Shown: in pieces, positions 25,453 to 61,449 of the stretch | Position numbering within the stretch: position 1 is the stretch's first letter | How the letters are laid out: every line of letters begins with the position of its first letter | Assembly: GCA_017454675.1 (NCBI GenBank) | Contig: JAFTCN010000046.1 | Coordinates: forward strand, 1 to 64,000 | Origin: Clostridia bacterium | GTDB taxonomy: Bacteria > Bacillota > Clostridia > Oscillospirales > CAG-272 | Direction: 5' to 3' | Length of the DNA stretch: 64,000 nt | The notes under the pieces: generated by a model | Database searches by the model: none | What the model was told of the DNA's origin: nothing | Seen by the model: only the letters and a program-made list of their open reading frames with translations | Made by a program: the position numbers and the translations under genes

Positions 25453-25560
25453 GACATCCTCTCTGCGGAACGCCCGTCGCGGGCTCCGCAGCCCGTCCTT
25501 TCAAAAAAAATACAGCTGCAAAATAAGACCATACACCCCGAAGTCGAATATTACCGCCGC

Positions 25561-25796
25561 GCGCATATACTGTCGTCTGCTCCGGACAGGCAACCCCGCG
25601 GCACACCGGACTTACCGCTTAATGCTGCTTGGTTCCCCACCTGACATGATTCACAGCGTCCGATTGCGCGAGACCCGTCCTTCAACACAGACAGGCAGGC
25701 TGCAGACCGCGTCGACTCCACCCTCGTTCGGGGAATCCACCCCCGCTACAGCGGATCTCGGGTACAAGGCACCGCTAACTCCCCGGCTGGTATGGC
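25561..25796 (-). ncRNA. ffs: Signal recognition particle RNA, large bacterial type with Alu domain
   Basis: Minus strand, about 236 nt. The 5' Alu part reads GGGGAGTTAGCGGTGCC, then TGTACCC and ATCCGCTGTAGCGGGG, as in Firmicutes scRNA. The apical S domain has GTCAGGTGGGGAACCAAGCAGCATTAAG, a variant of the Ffh-binding loop. Long complementary arms (GGTCTGC with GCAGAC) close the stem. Its place upstream of dnaX matches scr in Bacillus subtilis. The 3' end is estimated from pairing. Confidence 0.92.
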
Positions 25797-54418: not shown

Positions 54419-54481
54419 ATTAAGGAATATAATCGGATAACCGTGAGCGGTACATGCGCTCGAAAGGACGGCATCAAAAGA

Positions 54482-55270
54482 ATGTCAGCAAAACTCGGAA
54501 TCAATCTCAACTGCTACGGACCCCTTCCGGTCGACGAACAGATCGGACTCATGAAAAGGAACGGCTTCGAAGCCTGTTTCACCGGCTCCGAGAACCGCGA
54601 TCTCGACAGCATCATCCCCGCTCTCCGGGCCGCCGGGATCTCGTGCGACAACTTCCACGCACCGTTCGACAAGATCAACGCCATCTGGAAGGACAGCGAG
54701 ACCGGTGAAGAGATGTGCGCAAGGCTCCTCCGCTCTGTCGAAGCCTGCGCAAGATACGAAGTCCCCGCACTCGTGGTGCATCTTTCGTCGGGCCTGACTC
54801 CTCCGCACGTAAATGACATCGGCTGCGAGAGATGGCATAAGATCATGGATCTCGCCGACGGGCTGGGCGTAGCCGTCTGCTACGAGAACCAGCGGATGCT
54901 CTCGAACCTGGCCTTCGCCTTCGAGGAGTTTCCGGCCGCCCGCTTCTGCTGGGACTGCGGACACGAGTTCTGCTTCACCCCCGGACGTCACTATATGCCT
55001 CTCTTCGGCGATAAGCTCTCGGCCCTGCACATCCACGACAACCACCGCGTCTTCAACGGAGACGACCATATGATCCCGGGGGACGCCGATATCGATTTCG
55101 GATACGTCGCCGCGATGATAGCCGGGTCGGGCTACGAAGGCACGCTCATGCTCGAACTCATCAGAAAAAAGACTGATTTCTACGATGACTGGACGGCAGA
55201 GCGCTACTACGCTCACGCCGCCGAGGCGGCGGGAAAGCTCTCCGCCGCGATCGCTGCGGCCTCCCTGTGA
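54482..55270 (+). CDS. Sugar phosphate isomerase/epimerase-like TIM barrel
   Basis: A 262-residue AP-endonuclease-2-like barrel. Metal-site blocks are visible in order: FHAPFDKIN, VVHLSSG, CYENQRM, FCWDCGHEF, LHIHDNHRV and MLELIRKK. Such enzymes isomerise or epimerise free or phosphorylated sugars and inositols. Start alternatives are the ATG at 54482 and a GTG at 54443; neither has an ideal ribosome binding site. It is followed by the solute-binding lipoprotein and may serve the same substrate. Confidence 0.85.
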   Translation: MSAKLGINLNCYGPLPVDEQIGLMKRNGFEACFTGSENRDLDSIIPALRAAGISCDNFHAPFDKINAIWKDSETGEEMCARLLRSVEACARYEVPALVVHLSSGLTPPHVNDIGCERWHKIMDLADGLGVAVCYENQRMLSNLAFAFEEFPAARFCWDCGHEFCFTPGRHYMPLFGDKLSALHIHDNHRVFNGDDHMIPGDADIDFGYVAAMIAGSGYEGTLMLELIRKKTDFYDDWTAERYYAHAAEAAGKLSAAIAAASL

Positions 55271-55368
55271 GCGCCGGCGCAGGTTTCCGCGGACACTCCG
55301 GCGGACCGGTTTATCTCATACACGATAAAAAACACTCAAAGACCACTCAAAGATAAAAGGAGCAAATC

Positions 55369-56850
55369 ATGAAAAAAGCACTGAGTCTCATTCTGGCTTT
55401 GATGCTGCTTGCGGCAGCCTTCGCCGGCTGCGCGGAAGGGACCGGCGGCGAAGACACCGCCACAGACGTCCCCACCGCGCAGGTCTCCGACACCGAAGCA
55501 GGCACATCAGATCTGTACGATTTGAACGGATACCTGAAGGACAGCATACCCGAGGGAAAGTTCAACTACAACGACGAGGAATTCAACGTTCTCTACTGGT
55601 CTGACCGCGAACACGAGGAATTCGTGGCCGAAGCGATGACAGGCGACGCCGTCAACGACGCCATCTTCACCCGCAATCTCAACACCGAGACGCGCATGGG
55701 CGTGAAGCTGGTCTTCACCGGCACGCCCGGAAACGCCTCAAACAACGCGAACTTCACCGCCAAGGTCGACGCCGCCATCCAGTCGGGCATGCACGAATAC
55801 GACATGATCGGCGTATATTCGATCACCGCCGGCAACCTGGCCGTCAAGGGCTTCCTGTCCGAACTCGGCGGACACGATTATCCCGATCTCGACAAACCCT
55901 GGTGGCCCGCCTCGCTGATCAACGACGCGACGATCCACGGCAAGCTCTTCTTCGCGTCGGGCGATATCTCCGCCAACGTCATCTACATGATGTACGTGAC
56001 CTTCTTCAACAAGCAGATGATCGACAACCGCAATCTCGAGAGCCCCTACGATCTCGTCAAGAACGGCAAGTGGACGATCGACAAGATGTTCGAGATGTGC
56101 CAGGGCATCTACGAGGATACCGACAACTCCGGGAATCCCACACTCGGCGACACCTACGGACAGTACGCCTATACCCTCCACCTTGATCCCTTCCTCATCG
56201 GTTCCGGCATCACCTGCATCGACGCCTCGGGCGACGAGCTCGCCATAAACGAGGAATTCTACGGCGAGAAGGCCGGCGACATCGCAAAGAAGATCTCCGA
56301 CTTCTTCCACTCGAACGACAAGGCTTATCTTATCACGGTCAACGACAAGGTGCACCAGTACTTCGGAAGCGACAGGAGCCTCTTCTGGAACGACCGCTGC
56401 CGCAACAGCGCCACCTTCAAGAACAACGAGATCTCGTTCGGCGTCGTGCCCAACCCGATGTTCAACGAAGACCAGGACGCTTTCTACACCTGCATCGGCA
56501 ACCCGTTCTCGATCTACTGCATCCCGAGCGACGCCCCCGACGTGGACATGTCGACCGCCGTCATGGAGTGCTACGCATCCGAGACCTACCGCAACGTCTC
56601 GCCCGCCCTTTATGAGATCACCCTAAAGTACCGCTACACCGATGACGCCACATCCTCCGAGATGTTCGACATCATCCGCTCGAGCGTCGTATTCGACCTC
56701 GGCCGCATCTTCTCGTCCAACCTCGGCAACCCCTACACCATGTTCGAAAACTCCGTGAAGGAGGGTTCGAACTGGTCGACCGTCGCCGCCAGCAACGCGA
56801 AGCGCGTATGGCCTGCCAATCTGAAAGACATCAACGGCGCGTTCGAATGA
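55369..56850 (+). CDS. Extracellular solute-binding lipoprotein, family 1-like
   Basis: A 493-residue lipoprotein: signal peptide with AAAFAGC (lipidated Cys21), a Thr/Asp-rich linker, then a sugar-type binding fold (FNVLYWSDREHEEF, VDAAIQSGMHEYDMI, WWPASLINDATI). The family imports oligosaccharides through ABC permeases, but no permease or ATPase lies nearby, so it is an orphan that must pair with a distant transporter or act as a receptor. AAAGGAG lies eight bases upstream. Confidence 0.88.
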   Translation: MKKALSLILALMLLAAAFAGCAEGTGGEDTATDVPTAQVSDTEAGTSDLYDLNGYLKDSIPEGKFNYNDEEFNVLYWSDREHEEFVAEAMTGDAVNDAIFTRNLNTETRMGVKLVFTGTPGNASNNANFTAKVDAAIQSGMHEYDMIGVYSITAGNLAVKGFLSELGGHDYPDLDKPWWPASLINDATIHGKLFFASGDISANVIYMMYVTFFNKQMIDNRNLESPYDLVKNGKWTIDKMFEMCQGIYEDTDNSGNPTLGDTYGQYAYTLHLDPFLIGSGITCIDASGDELAINEEFYGEKAGDIAKKISDFFHSNDKAYLITVNDKVHQYFGSDRSLFWNDRCRNSATFKNNEISFGVVPNPMFNEDQDAFYTCIGNPFSIYCIPSDAPDVDMSTAVMECYASETYRNVSPALYEITLKYRYTDDATSSEMFDIIRSSVVFDLGRIFSSNLGNPYTMFENSVKEGSNWSTVAASNAKRVWPANLKDINGAFE

Positions 56851-56915
56851 GAACGGCCTGACCCCGCCCGCCGGAGGCTCCGACGCCCGAGGGCCGGAGA
56901 CAACGGTTTTCATAC

Positions 56916-58475
56916 ATGGATAAAACGATACTGATATCGCTTCTGAAAAAGACGCGCGAGGCCGTATTCTCGGTGCTGCCGGTCTCGGCCGCCGCACTTG
57001 CGGTCTCGCTCGTCCCGGGCGCCGGCATCGACGTCCGTACAGCGGTGATCTTCTGCGTGTGCACGCTGCTCATGATCGTCGGCATCGCCGTCTTCAACCT
57101 CGGAGCCGACATGTCGATGATGCCGATGGGCGAGCGCGTCGGATCCGGTCTTACGAAGACCGGAAAGATCCCGCTCCTGTTCGGAGCCTGCTTCGTGCTC
57201 GGTCTGCTCATCACGGTGGCAGAACCGGATCTGTCGGTGCTCGCGTCGCAGACCTCGTCGGTCATAAACGGCAGGGTCCTGGTGTTCGCCGTCGGAGCCG
57301 GCGTGGCTTTCTGCCTCACCGTCGGCGCCAACGTTATAACCGGCAGACAGAACCTCATTCGCCTGCTGCTCTTCTTCTACATGGCGGTCTTTTCCTTCTG
57401 CGCGGTGCTCGCGGAGAACGGAAGATCGACCCTTCTTCCTCTCGTGTTCGATTCGGGAGGAGTCACGACGGGACCGGTCAGCGTCCCCTTCCTTATGGCG
57501 CTGGGCGTCGGGATCGCGTCCGCCGCGGGCGGCGACAGCCGGCGCGACAACAGCTTCGGACTGATCTCGCTGTGCTCTGTCGGTCCGCTCTTCGCACTCG
57601 CCGCGCTCTTCATCTTCTCTGACGGCTCGCCGGCGTATTCCCTGCCCCCGTACTCGGTCGCCGAAGGCCCCGGGACATTCTTCTCGGAACTCGGTTCGGT
57701 ATCGCTCGATCTCCTCGTGTCGATAGGCCTCATAATCGCCTTCTTCACGGCGCTTCAGCTAACCGTTCTGAGGCTCCACAGGGCTGAACTGCTCCGCATG
57801 GGCATAGGGATAGTCTACACCTTTGCCGGCCTCGCCGTCTTCCTCACTGCCGTGAACGTCGGATATATGCCCGTGGGCTTTAAGATAGGCGGCCTGCTGG
57901 CGGGGCTTCCCCGCCCGGCTATCGCCGCGGCGGGCGTGATGCTCGGCGCCATGACGGTGCTGGCCGAACCGGCGGTGCACGTCCTGACGAAACAGGTCGA
58001 GGACGTCACCGGAGGGCTCGTCTCGCGGCGAGCGGTAAGGATAGGTCTTGCCGCCGGCGTGGGCATCTCGATAGCCCTCTCGTTCATCCGTATCATATAC
58101 GGTTTCTCGGTACTCTGGTACCTTATTCCCGGATATATCCTCTCTTTTGCCCTTTCGTTCTTCGTGCCGGGAATCTACAGCGCGATAGCCTTCGATTCGG
58201 GCGGAGTCGCGAGCGGACCTCTTACTTCGAGCTTCATACTGCCCGTCGCCATCGGTCTGTGCGCCGCGCTGCGCGGCGAGAGCGAAGTACTGCGCTGCGC
58301 CTTCGGCACCGTGGCCGTCGTCGCCATGACGCCGCTCATCACGGTGCAGACTCTCGGCTTCCGCTCTGTCGTCTCTGCCGCGGTGCGCCGGAGGATCGTC
58401 ATGCGCCGCATACTCGGTTCCGACGACGAGCAGATAATCTATTTCGGGCAGCGTAAAAAAGAAAATGAAGAATAA
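56916..58475 (+). CDS. DUF1538 membrane protein, two tandem domains
   Basis: A 519-residue protein with about twelve helices arranged as two homologous halves. Each half has an AEP motif (VAEPDLSVLASQ; LAEPAVHVLTKQ) and a FDSGG(V)-TGP-like block (FDSGGVTTGPVSVPF; FDSGGVASGPLTSSF). These conserved polar motifs in both halves suggest an inverted-repeat-like transporter or channel. The family has no firmly assigned substrate. It is followed, with an 11-bp overlap, by two P-II-like genes, a layout that recalls AmtB-GlnK. Confidence 0.88.
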   Translation: MDKTILISLLKKTREAVFSVLPVSAAALAVSLVPGAGIDVRTAVIFCVCTLLMIVGIAVFNLGADMSMMPMGERVGSGLTKTGKIPLLFGACFVLGLLITVAEPDLSVLASQTSSVINGRVLVFAVGAGVAFCLTVGANVITGRQNLIRLLLFFYMAVFSFCAVLAENGRSTLLPLVFDSGGVTTGPVSVPFLMALGVGIASAAGGDSRRDNSFGLISLCSVGPLFALAALFIFSDGSPAYSLPPYSVAEGPGTFFSELGSVSLDLLVSIGLIIAFFTALQLTVLRLHRAELLRMGIGIVYTFAGLAVFLTAVNVGYMPVGFKIGGLLAGLPRPAIAAAGVMLGAMTVLAEPAVHVLTKQVEDVTGGLVSRRAVRIGLAAGVGISIALSFIRIIYGFSVLWYLIPGYILSFALSFFVPGIYSAIAFDSGGVASGPLTSSFILPVAIGLCAALRGESEVLRCAFGTVAVVAMTPLITVQTLGFRSVVSAAVRRRIVMRRILGSDDEQIIYFGQRKKENEE

Positions 58476-58893
58476 AGAAAAAGAGACGACGGCGGAACAG
58501 AAGAACGTGCTCCGGTCGGGACGTCTCGAAGTCCTCGTGACGATCGTCGGAAGGCACAAGGCGGATTCCTATCTCGACCTCATACGCACCTACGAGTCGA
58601 ACATGCAGATCTCGGTCCCCGCCTTCGGGACCGCCGGGACCGCCGGCAGCGACATCGCGACGATGCTGGGCATCGAAGACAACGACAGGACCGTCATATT
58701 CAGCGTGATCCGCGAGGATCAGTCGCCCGACATCCTCTCGGAGATCGGAAAGAGGTTCAGGCGGGTCCGCGAAGGCAAAGGCATCGCATTCACCCTGCCT
58801 ATGTCGAGCATAATCGGAGTCGCGCTCTTCGGATTCCTCAGCAACGGAAGGCCGGGGAGCGGAGGACGCGGAACGTCCGGAACGGAGGACTGA
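58465..58893 (+). CDS. P-II-like signalling protein, longer paralog
   Basis: A 142-residue protein with a P-II/GlnB-like ferredoxin fold from residue about 20 (RLEVLVTIVGRHKADSYLDLI) to REGKGIAFTLPMSSIIGVAL. It has an N-terminal extension of about 18 charged residues and a Gly/Ser-rich C-terminal tail. The canonical uridylylation Tyr51 T-loop is not seen; the loop region reads VPAFGTAGTAGSDIATMLG. It probably binds a nucleotide and controls the DUF1538 protein. It overlaps that gene by 11 bp. Confidence 0.78.
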   Translation: MKNKEKETTAEQKNVLRSGRLEVLVTIVGRHKADSYLDLIRTYESNMQISVPAFGTAGTAGSDIATMLGIEDNDRTVIFSVIREDQSPDILSEIGKRFRRVREGKGIAFTLPMSSIIGVALFGFLSNGRPGSGGRGTSGTED

Positions 58894-58896
58894 GAT

Positions 58897-59208
58897 ATGG
58901 CTGCAATGAGCTACGAAATGATAATGTGCATAGTGAACTCCGGCTGCGCGGCGGACGTGATGGTCGCCGCGAGAGACGCGGGAGTCAGGGGAGGAACGGT
59001 CATACGCGGACACGGCACAGCCGCGAAGGAAGCCGAAGAATTCTTCCGCATCACCGTCCAGCCCGAAAAAGAGATAGTGATAATGCTGGTGCCGTCGGAG
59101 ATCAAGGACAGCGTCCTGCATGCGCTATACAGGTCCGTCGGTCTCGATACGCGGGGACAGGGGATCGCCTTCTCGATCCCGGTGAACGACGCGGTGGGAC
59201 TCTCCTAG
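58897..59208 (+). CDS. P-II-like signalling protein, shorter paralog
   Basis: A 103-residue P-II-like protein (EMIMCIVNSGCAADVMVAARDAG, then GGTVIRGHGT and GQGIAFSIPVNDAVGLS). The GHGT loop and the G-x-GIAFSIPV end are shared with P-II proteins found beside DUF1538. It starts four bases after the longer paralog. The pair may form a heterotrimer or two separate sensors. Confidence 0.8.
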   Translation: MAAMSYEMIMCIVNSGCAADVMVAARDAGVRGGTVIRGHGTAAKEAEEFFRITVQPEKEIVIMLVPSEIKDSVLHALYRSVGLDTRGQGIAFSIPVNDAVGLS

Positions 59209-59387
59209 CGCCCCTCCCCGCCGCCCGCGCCGCTTGAGCGGCAGTCCGCACTCACACAAGACGGACAGTGAACTTCAGAAAGCAAACAATGCCATACGGG
59301 ACGCCCCTCCCGGAAGGCGGAAATACCGATAAACACACCGCTGACGGCGCTCTTGCGCCGGCGCTGAGAAAAGAAAGGAACAACACC

Positions 59388-59636
59388 ATGACGGCAGCCG
59401 AAATCAAAGCAAAAGTCGAAGAACTCGTTAAAAAGATAACCGGGAGCAAGAACCTCCTCGCCGGATTCAGGTCCGATCCCCTCGGGACCGTTAAGAAACT
59501 GCTCGGAAAGGGCGTCCCCGCCGACGCCACCGAAAAGATCACCGAGGCCGTGAAAGCCAGGATCGGATTCGAAGACGTCAAGGACGACGCCGAGGGAGTC
59601 ATCTCGAAGATCACCGGCCTCTTCGGAAAAAAGTGA
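59388..59636 (+). CDS. Small helical protein, Clostridia-type
   Basis: An 82-residue protein beginning MTAAEIKAKVEELVKKITG, with LAGFRSDPLGTVKKLLGKGVP and ending ITGLFGKK. Similar short proteins with a DPxxTVKxLLG motif are frequent in Clostridia and lack a known function. The motif recalls the leader part of Nif11/nitrile-hydratase-like precursor peptides, but no modification enzyme is nearby and there is no obvious core peptide. AAAGGA lies eight bases upstream of the ATG. It starts a tightly packed pair with the next TIM-barrel gene (3-bp gap). Confidence 0.7.
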   Translation: MTAAEIKAKVEELVKKITGSKNLLAGFRSDPLGTVKKLLGKGVPADATEKITEAVKARIGFEDVKDDAEGVISKITGLFGKK

Positions 59637-59639
59637 CCA

Positions 59640-60488
59640 ATGCCTGCCTTCAGACTCTGCGGCTTCGCGGATGAAGCCGACAGCCTGCTCGACGGAAAGA
59701 TAAGCGCCCTCCGCGGAAACGGGATGGACCTTATCGAGCTCCGGGGCATCGACGGCAAAAACGTCGCCGCTCTCACTCAGAAAGAGGCAAAAGAGACCGC
59801 GCAACGGCTGCGCGACGCCGGCATCGGCGTGTGGTCGGTAGGTTCGCCGATAGGCAAGGTCGACATCTCTTCGCCGGCCGACGACGAGACCGACCGCTTC
59901 ATGCGGATACTCGACACCGCCGTCATCTGCGGCGCCGGGAACATCCGGCTCTTCTCTTTCTACGGGACCGGCGGCGACAGCCGTTACCTCGACGAAGTGG
60001 TACGCCGCCTCCGCACGATGCTGGAGCGCTCCGCCGGAAGCGGAGTCACCCTCTGCCACGAAAACGAAAAAGGCATATACGGCGATACCGCTGACAGATG
60101 CGCCGCGATACACGAAGCCCTGCCCGGACTGCGCGGGGTATTCGACCCCGCGAACTACGTCCAGTGCGGCGAGGACATCCTCAGCGCCTGGAAAAAGCTC
60201 TCGGGATACGTCAAATACGCCCATATCAAGGACGCTCTGTCAGACGGCAGGGTCGTTCCTCCCGGAGACGGCGTCGGGCACCTGCCCGAGCTGCTCCCAC
60301 TCTTTGCCGGAGCCGGAGTCGGCGTACTCACCCTTGAGCCGCATCTGCGCGTCTTCAAGGGACTGTCGTCGCTCGAGGGCGGGAAGCGGCCGCCAGTCGG
60401 CAGCGACGCCGTACCGCAGTTCGCGAGCGGCAGAGAAGCCTTCGACTTCGCGGCGACAAAGCTCCGCGGGCTCATATCCGCAATCTGA
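59640..60488 (+). CDS. Sugar phosphate isomerase/epimerase-like TIM barrel
   Basis: A 282-residue barrel of the AP-endonuclease-2 group: LCGFADEADSLLDGKI, MDLIELRGIDGKNV, TLCHENEKGIYG (metal Glu), GVFDPANYVQCG (Asp), YAHIKDAL (His) and LTLEPHL (final Glu). The FADEA start is shared by a Clostridia subgroup found with sugar oxidoreductases. It starts three bases after the small helical protein. Substrate unknown. Confidence 0.87.
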   Translation: MPAFRLCGFADEADSLLDGKISALRGNGMDLIELRGIDGKNVAALTQKEAKETAQRLRDAGIGVWSVGSPIGKVDISSPADDETDRFMRILDTAVICGAGNIRLFSFYGTGGDSRYLDEVVRRLRTMLERSAGSGVTLCHENEKGIYGDTADRCAAIHEALPGLRGVFDPANYVQCGEDILSAWKKLSGYVKYAHIKDALSDGRVVPPGDGVGHLPELLPLFAGAGVGVLTLEPHLRVFKGLSSLEGGKRPPVGSDAVPQFASGREAFDFAATKLRGLISAI

Positions 60489-60669
60489 GCCGGCGTCCGG
60501 ACCTCCCAGTCAGGTCCGCGGGCGGAAACCGGAAGCTTCGGCGCGGCTTCTCCTCCGCGCCGGTACCCTCCCGTACACTCCACTTTCCTCCCGTCAAATC
60601 CGCTTTCCGGGGAAGACGCCGGAAGGGCGGAAAGACAAACAAAATAATTAAAAGAAGCAGGGTCCTAGA
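60489..60669. other. Intergenic stretch without visible feature
   Basis: GC-rich sequence between two isomerase genes. I see no convincing promoter, terminator or coding frame; the AAGAAGC near 60653 is only a weak ribosome binding site for the next gene. Confidence 0.6.
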
Positions 60670-61449
60670 ATGATCATCGGAGCACAGTTATATACGGTCA
60701 GAAACTTCTGCCAGACCCCTGAGGGCCTCCGGTCGAGCCTGCGGCGCTGCGCCGAAATGGGATACCGCGCGGTGCAGCTGTCGGGCGTATGCGAGTACGA
60801 TCCGGCGGAGATGTCGGACATGCTCGCCGAATTCGGCCTCGAGGCGCCGCTCACGCACACCCCGTTTTCACGCATCACAGGACAGACCGATGCCGTGATA
60901 TCCGAACACAGGGTCTTCGGAGCGAGATACATAGGTCTCGGCTCGATGCCGGATCTCAAAAAGAGCGGCTGCGACGTCGGGCTTCTCGACCGCAACCTCG
61001 CGCTGCTCGCGCCCGCGGTCGAAAAGATCCGCGAGGCAGGAATGGTATTCATGTACCACAACCACAATATGGAGTTCGCGAGGACGGAGAGCGGCGAGCT
61101 GCTGCTCGAACATATCGCGAAAGCACTTCCCGCCGACTGCACCGGCATCACGCTCGACTGTTACTGGGTGACCGCCGGAGGCGGAGACCCGGCGTACTGG
61201 CTGCGCCGGCTGTCGGGAAGAGTCGACTGTATACATCTCAAGGACATGGTCTACAGCGGCGAGGACAGCGCCGTCAGGATGGCTCCCGTCGGACGCGGGA
61301 ACCTCAACCACAGGGCGATCGTCGATGCCGCGAAGGACGCCGGTGTTCGATACGCGTTCGTCGAACAGGATCACTGCTACGGCGAGGATCCCTTCGACTG
61401 CCTGAAGGAGAGCCTGGACAGTCTCCGCGCTCTGGGCTGCGCCGACTGA
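60670..61449 (+). CDS. Sugar phosphate isomerase/epimerase-like TIM barrel (IolE-like)
   Basis: A 259-residue barrel: MIIGAQLYTVRNFCQTPEGL, GYRAVQLSGV, FMYHNHNMEFAR (metal block), LDCYWVTAGGGDPAYWLRRL, CIHLKDMVYSG and FVEQDHCYG (final Glu). These blocks resemble IolE/xylose isomerase-like proteins that often form operons with Gfo/Idh dehydrogenases, as here: the next gene follows after 41 bp. The two probably act in sequence on an oxidised sugar or inositol. Confidence 0.88.
   Translation: MIIGAQLYTVRNFCQTPEGLRSSLRRCAEMGYRAVQLSGVCEYDPAEMSDMLAEFGLEAPLTHTPFSRITGQTDAVISEHRVFGARYIGLGSMPDLKKSGCDVGLLDRNLALLAPAVEKIREAGMVFMYHNHNMEFARTESGELLLEHIAKALPADCTGITLDCYWVTAGGGDPAYWLRRLSGRVDCIHLKDMVYSGEDSAVRMAPVGRGNLNHRAIVDAAKDAGVRYAFVEQDHCYGEDPFDCLKESLDSLRALGCAD

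Follow-up and report, generated by a model that had tools for sequence, protein, structure and literature searches.

A DUF1538 membrane protein encoded with two P-II-like proteins in a Clostridia bacterium, a candidate antiporter under a putative two-domain P-II sensor split into two proteins

The window analyzed here is a 64,000-nucleotide stretch of DNA from a Clostridia bacterium. The list of its open reading frames confirmed a DUF1538 gene, an overlapping P-II-like gene and an adjoining second one at the coordinates given in the initial annotation. The first two genes overlap by 11 bases, and three bases separate the end of the second from the start of the third. The products of the second and third genes are referred to as P1 and P2. 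The features of the triad are:

56916–58475, + strand: gene for a DUF1538 (UmpAB-type) membrane protein of 519 aa, two homologous halves in one chain (PF07556 twice; AF2 model)
58465–58893, + strand: gene for P1, 142 aa, divergent P-II-like protein with an N-terminal extension and a conserved C-terminal tail, VALFGFLSN (hhalign to the P2 family; AF2 model)
58884–58889, + strand: Shine-Dalgarno-like GGAGGA ahead of P2 (sequence)
58897–59208, + strand: gene for P2, 103 aa, the more conserved P-II protein, with a short T-loop (Pfam P-II; profile reaches P-II structures)

The neighborhood of the triad (window 54443–61449) contains three genes for xylose-isomerase-like TIM-barrel proteins (PF01261) and a 493-aa ORF with a lipoprotein-like start and no Pfam match; no gene in this interval was obviously tied to ion balance. 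A bacterial large SRP RNA lies at 25529–25795 on the minus strand of the window (Rfam RF01854, 167.8 bits).

PF07556 matched the DUF1538 protein in two stretches (E 1.5e-106, 354.9 bits against a cut-off of 22.6), bearing out the two similar halves described initially. In the AF2 model (pLDDT 85.6, pTM 0.88), each half has two helix breaks, both of which coincide with invariant acidic motifs (AEP and FDSGG) in the alignment. These motifs and the C-terminal tail are located as follows:

57219–57233, + strand: AEPDL, residues 102–106, helix break in half 1; E103, P104 and D105 invariant (alignment of 50 sequences, DSSP of the model)
57447–57476, + strand: FDSGGVTTGP, residues 178–187, helix break in half 1; D179 invariant (alignment, model)
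57963–57974, + strand: AEPA, residues 350–353, half-2 equivalent of AEPDL; E351 invariant (alignment, model)
58191–58220, + strand: FDSGGVASGP, residues 426–435, half-2 equivalent of FDSGGVTTGP; D427 invariant (alignment, model)
58377–58472, + strand: C-terminal tail, basic then acidic (...RRILGSDDEQIIYF...), predicted to be cytoplasmic and flexible (AF2 model, charge pattern)

Positive charge alternates along the protein. Since the homologous loops of the two halves are mostly opposite in charge bias, the model and the charge pattern together suggest 14 segments, arranged as two inverted seven-segment halves with both termini on the cytosolic side; we placed the segment borders ourselves from the DSSP string. 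The twelve helices counted initially are therefore probably too few, and seven transmembrane segments each have been reported for UmpA and UmpB (PMC5484666). The tail (RRIL..DDEQIIYF) is conserved: of 111 DUF1538 proteins of the fused type, 88 have the DDEQII core. We infer that the tail is a candidate docking peptide.

DUF1538 had been introduced as a family without a firmly assigned substrate. This description is outdated: in one study, the Halomonas UmpAB proteins, encoded by a DUF1538 gene pair, were assayed as a Na+(Li+,K+)/H+ antiporter, which can swap K+ for H+ and conferred salt and alkali tolerance on E. coli KNabc (PMC5484666). DUF1538 is also among the key families that predict growth pH (PMC13255231). 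By sequence, the window protein is a member of the same Pfam family as UmpAB, and we do not claim it as an UmpA or UmpB equivalog. Its NCBIfam scores were far below the cut-offs, at 119.2 bits for UmpB (cut-off 500) and 116.6 bits for UmpA (cut-off 490), and because these were missed so widely, its substrate may differ from that of UmpAB; the same substrate is nevertheless plausible from the family relationship. We consider it rather unlikely that DUF1538 of these gut Clostridia carries something other than Na+ or K+, with the P-II pair still acting as its regulator. Besides the missed cut-offs, such a reading is favored by a PDB search that returned no significant fold relative despite the confident model, and by the single assayed DUF1538 family member that we found in the literature. 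It fits less well with the acidic motifs, which recur in both halves at helix breaks as expected for a cation path, and with the alternative partner of the P-II family, which likewise comes from an ion-transporter family (see below).

Of the two small proteins, P2 groups with P-II in profile searches. Its Pfam P-II score of 24.9 bits was 0.1 bit below the cut-off of 25 (E 2.7e-5), all 31 aligned relatives matched at E<=0.1 (best 4.8e-10), and the family profile reached P-II structures in the PDB (best 9p1x, E 2e-7). P1 alone had no match to Pfam P-II, and 19 of 32 relatives had a weak one. Profile-profile comparison with hhalign aligned the P1 and P2 families end to end (99.2%, E 9.5e-20). The core blocks of the AF2 model of P1 mostly had pLDDT values of 86–94, and Foldseek matched this model to PstA, CPII, GlnK1 and SbtB with modest TM-scores of 0.4–0.7. 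An unrelated origin of P1 was thereby ruled out. At the level of sequence profiles, its homology to P2 and its membership of the P-II superfamily are unambiguous, and a P-II fold (ferredoxin-like double beta-alpha-beta) is predicted.

Residues were mapped onto E. coli GlnB for P1 (n = 32) and P2-type sequences (n = 31). I7, G24, G27, T29, G35 and G89 were found in 31/31 P2-type domains and G87 in 24/31, with Gln39 in a single one. The Lys90 position, a canonical ATP phosphate contact, was occupied by I, L, V or M in all aligned sequences, the Arg101 position was Gly in all, and Arg103 was retained in two of the 31 P2-type sequences. Because the adenine-side residues and glycine loops are kept while these phosphate contacts are gone, a non-canonical mode of adenine nucleotide binding is still possible for P2. 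P1 retains G87 and G89 of the B-loop and a Lys or Arg at position 58; T29 was present in 5/32 sequences, G35 aligned in 1/32 and Arg103 in none. Hence, P1 looks like a degenerate partner that has lost most of the nucleotide pocket. The initial annotation had noticed that the longer protein, P1, has no canonical T-loop tyrosine; we found Tyr51 in 0/32 P1 sequences, and the observation extends to P2, with F or L in 29/31 P2-type sequences and Tyr in 2/31. As Tyr51 and the phosphate contacts were looked for and not found, P1 and P2 are, on sequence criteria, P-II superfamily proteins outside the canonical nitrogen group (GlnB/GlnK).

The pairing of these genes proved to be highly conserved. Relatives of DUF1538 (50–98% identical) were examined at 80 GTDB loci. 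They were followed by a P1 homolog in 80/80 and, where the contig continues, by a P2 homolog in 77/77; the next most common neighbor family was present in 14/80. In a survey of 399 genomes across the phylum, in which the P-II family was counted at a best E<=1e-20 to the P2 family, DUF1538 occurred in 139 genomes, about a third, covering dozens of family-level groups. The P-II family was present in 137 of these 139 genomes vs 1 of the 260 genomes without DUF1538 (Fisher p ~1e-104, a value that ignores shared ancestry). One of the two exceptions (G361) was a contig end. The other (G114) carried a stop-ridden DUF1538 remnant (C1:2161174-2161630, six in-frame stops in one of two matches), and this pseudogene in a genome with no P-II of the family left is an apparent case of joint decay. 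A third candidate exception (L098) was dismissed, its P-II lying 0.9 kb downstream. Outside the phylum, the survey touched DUF1538 in three alphaproteobacterial plasmid records. Each of the nine plasmid records that encode DUF1538 carried P-II as well, with the order DUF1538-DUF1538-P-II (UmpA-UmpB-P-II) in Methylocystis and Chelativorans (Alphaproteobacteria) and DUF1538 with a two-domain P-II in Clostridia. The initial annotation had left it to such a survey to tell whether the genes are random neighbors; they are not, and both surveys, together with the low count of the next neighbor, rule out a chance neighborhood. The gene pair is on display in public annotation, and we found no paper describing it in the open-licence literature. 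A viral-contig scan with UmpB returned nothing. Five unannotated phage records that encode DUF1538 (MT837261, MT835770, MT835548, MT839021, OR847559) are probably bacterial fragments labeled as phage.

Gene architecture was compared at 30 loci sampled over the phylum, 29 of which were readable (the remaining one being the contig end of G361, without P-II). DUF1538 was either split (UmpA + UmpB) or fused, and P-II was encoded as a single gene, as two adjacent genes or as one fused two-domain gene; wherever P-II was a single gene, DUF1538 was split, and the transporter came first in 29/29 loci. In a domain tree built on few columns and only partly resolved, P1 grouped with the N-domains of the tandem proteins (SH-aLRT 96) and P2 with the C-domains (99). 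Based on this clustering, the first and second P-II domains are distinct paralogs, of which the first evolves faster. The tree and the fused two-domain forms therefore identify the arrangement at 56916–59208 as a two-domain sensor divided between two genes. A functional link with DUF1538 and the two-part sensor suggested initially have both gained strong support from the pairing, the fused forms and the separate clades.

The same P-II family was also found beside other membrane proteins. It adjoins a CitMHS/ArsB-type (MamN-like) transporter in five genomes (G373, G402, G423, G484 and G513; loci L179, L180, L181, L192 and L193), possibly another undescribed P-II-transporter pair. At one further locus (L182:420-3550), a single P-II of the family lies ~270 bases behind an 837-aa ORF, the first 460 residues of which are a transhydrogenase beta subunit (PntB). 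Given the nature of these partners, the distribution supports a putative role of the family in regulating ion-coupled membrane proteins. The same alternative partners could also be expected if P1 and P2 had no gating role, with the membrane protein acting as a sensor that sequesters P-II proteins directed at another target, or with the genes being merely co-expressed; AmtB is described as sequestering GlnK in work cited in PMC10710835. We regard this as quite improbable, since the near-exclusive pairing and the loss of P-II where DUF1538 has decayed are more in keeping with a dedicated than with a global regulator.

As to the signal, the genome encodes elsewhere a single chain that combines an ammonium transporter with a canonical P-II domain, whose T-loop has YYRG (G000 contig C39, L185; the locus ends inside the gene). 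The presence of this separate fusion rules out P1 and P2 as the nitrogen P-II of the genome, and nitrogen sensing is probably handled by the other gene. A different possibility is that DUF1538 is under the same kind of P-II control, with the pair responding, via a PstA-like site, to c-di-AMP, the Gram-positive messenger of potassium balance. A diadenylate cyclase is encoded in the genome, and PstA was both the top Foldseek match of the P1 model (E 2e-4) and the sole protein whose PDB sequences the P1 profile reached (E 1.3, not significant). The K+/H+ exchange by UmpAB would also fit. However, the lead of PstA over other P-II structures was narrow, and the DUF1538/P-II system extends to Alphaproteobacteria, in which c-di-AMP is not generally known. 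Moreover, no riboswitch naming a signal, c-di-AMP included, was found upstream of the operon in the window or in 30 related loci; the one c-di-AMP riboswitch (L125) lies downstream of the operon, ahead of an asparagine synthase gene. We therefore judge c-di-AMP an improbable effector.

Taken together, it is likely, in our assessment, that the three genes form one unit, in which a two-domain P-II sensor, here divided into P1 and P2, acts from the cytosolic side to control the activity of a monovalent cation/proton antiporter of the UmpAB/DUF1538 type. In such a unit, P2 would be the domain that binds a small-molecule effector, probably an adenine nucleotide. The degenerate P1, of the same family origin, would join P2 to close a mixed or stacked ring and keep that ring attached to the transporter, and effector binding would shift the short loops so that the antiporter is locked or released, as in GlnK/AmtB and SbtB/SbtA. 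We infer physical contact, inhibition rather than activation, the identity of the ligand and the stoichiometry, while a GlnK-AmtB- or SbtB-SbtA-like way of working is proposed by analogy. Weighing against this reading are the low NCBIfam scores of the DUF1538 protein, the phosphate contacts missing from P2 and the largely lost pocket of P1; gene adjacency, too, is no proof of contact, and the known transporters under P-II control are said to be trimers (PMC10710835).

Switching nitrogen and carbon uptake is the classic role of P-II proteins. According to a 2023 review, the transporters under their control are Amt, Nrt, Urt and SbtA, and their use appears to be limited to trimers (PMC10710835). 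We put forward more tentatively, at somewhat less than an even chance, that a cation/proton antiporter of two inverted halves is gated by a dedicated P-II sensor of two domains, one binding the ligand and the other degenerate; no earlier case of P-II control over pH, Na+ and K+ balance would then precede it. If so, a P-II family almost exclusively linked to one antiporter family in 139/399 genomes, roughly a third of a large phylum, would widen P-II signaling to the balance of ions and pH, and, if DUF1538 is not trimeric, this would be the first case beyond three-fold P-II/transporter matching. Fused tandem P-II proteins and single-chain DUF1538 offer simple constructs for testing.

Among known systems, NifI1 and NifI2 are likewise a pair of distinct P-II paralogs with neighboring genes, but their target is nitrogenase and not a transporter. 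The c-di-AMP receptor PstA/DarA shares the P-II fold and a short T-loop and is the closest Foldseek match of P1, whereas its sequence relation to P1 is not significant and PstA is a stand-alone protein. The UmpAB antiporter belongs to the same Pfam family and has the same two homologous halves; in the window protein these are fused and score below the NCBIfam cut-offs, and no P-II was reported alongside Halomonas umpAB, where the cloned fragment held four ORFs only, none of them P-II (PMC5484666). The parallel to the ammonium channel-GlnK layout drawn in the initial annotation stands in part. As in GlnK-AmtB, a P-II gene, for a cytosolic and here putative regulator, is paired with a membrane transporter gene (PMC3831643, PMC10710835), and this pairing is conserved; the parallel does not extend to the window transporter, which is unrelated to AmtB, or to the non-canonical P-II proteins, which are two paralogs with a short T-loop without tyrosine and lack Lys90, Arg101 and Arg103. 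Compared with SbtB-SbtA, which combines one SbtB with a trimeric SbtA, the window has two P-II proteins and a DUF1538 without a significant PDB fold match, yet in both cases the P-II is non-canonical, and SbtB binds, in an AMP-dependent manner, a secondary transporter that is coupled to Na+ and consists of two inverted repeats (PMC8352866, PMC10710835).
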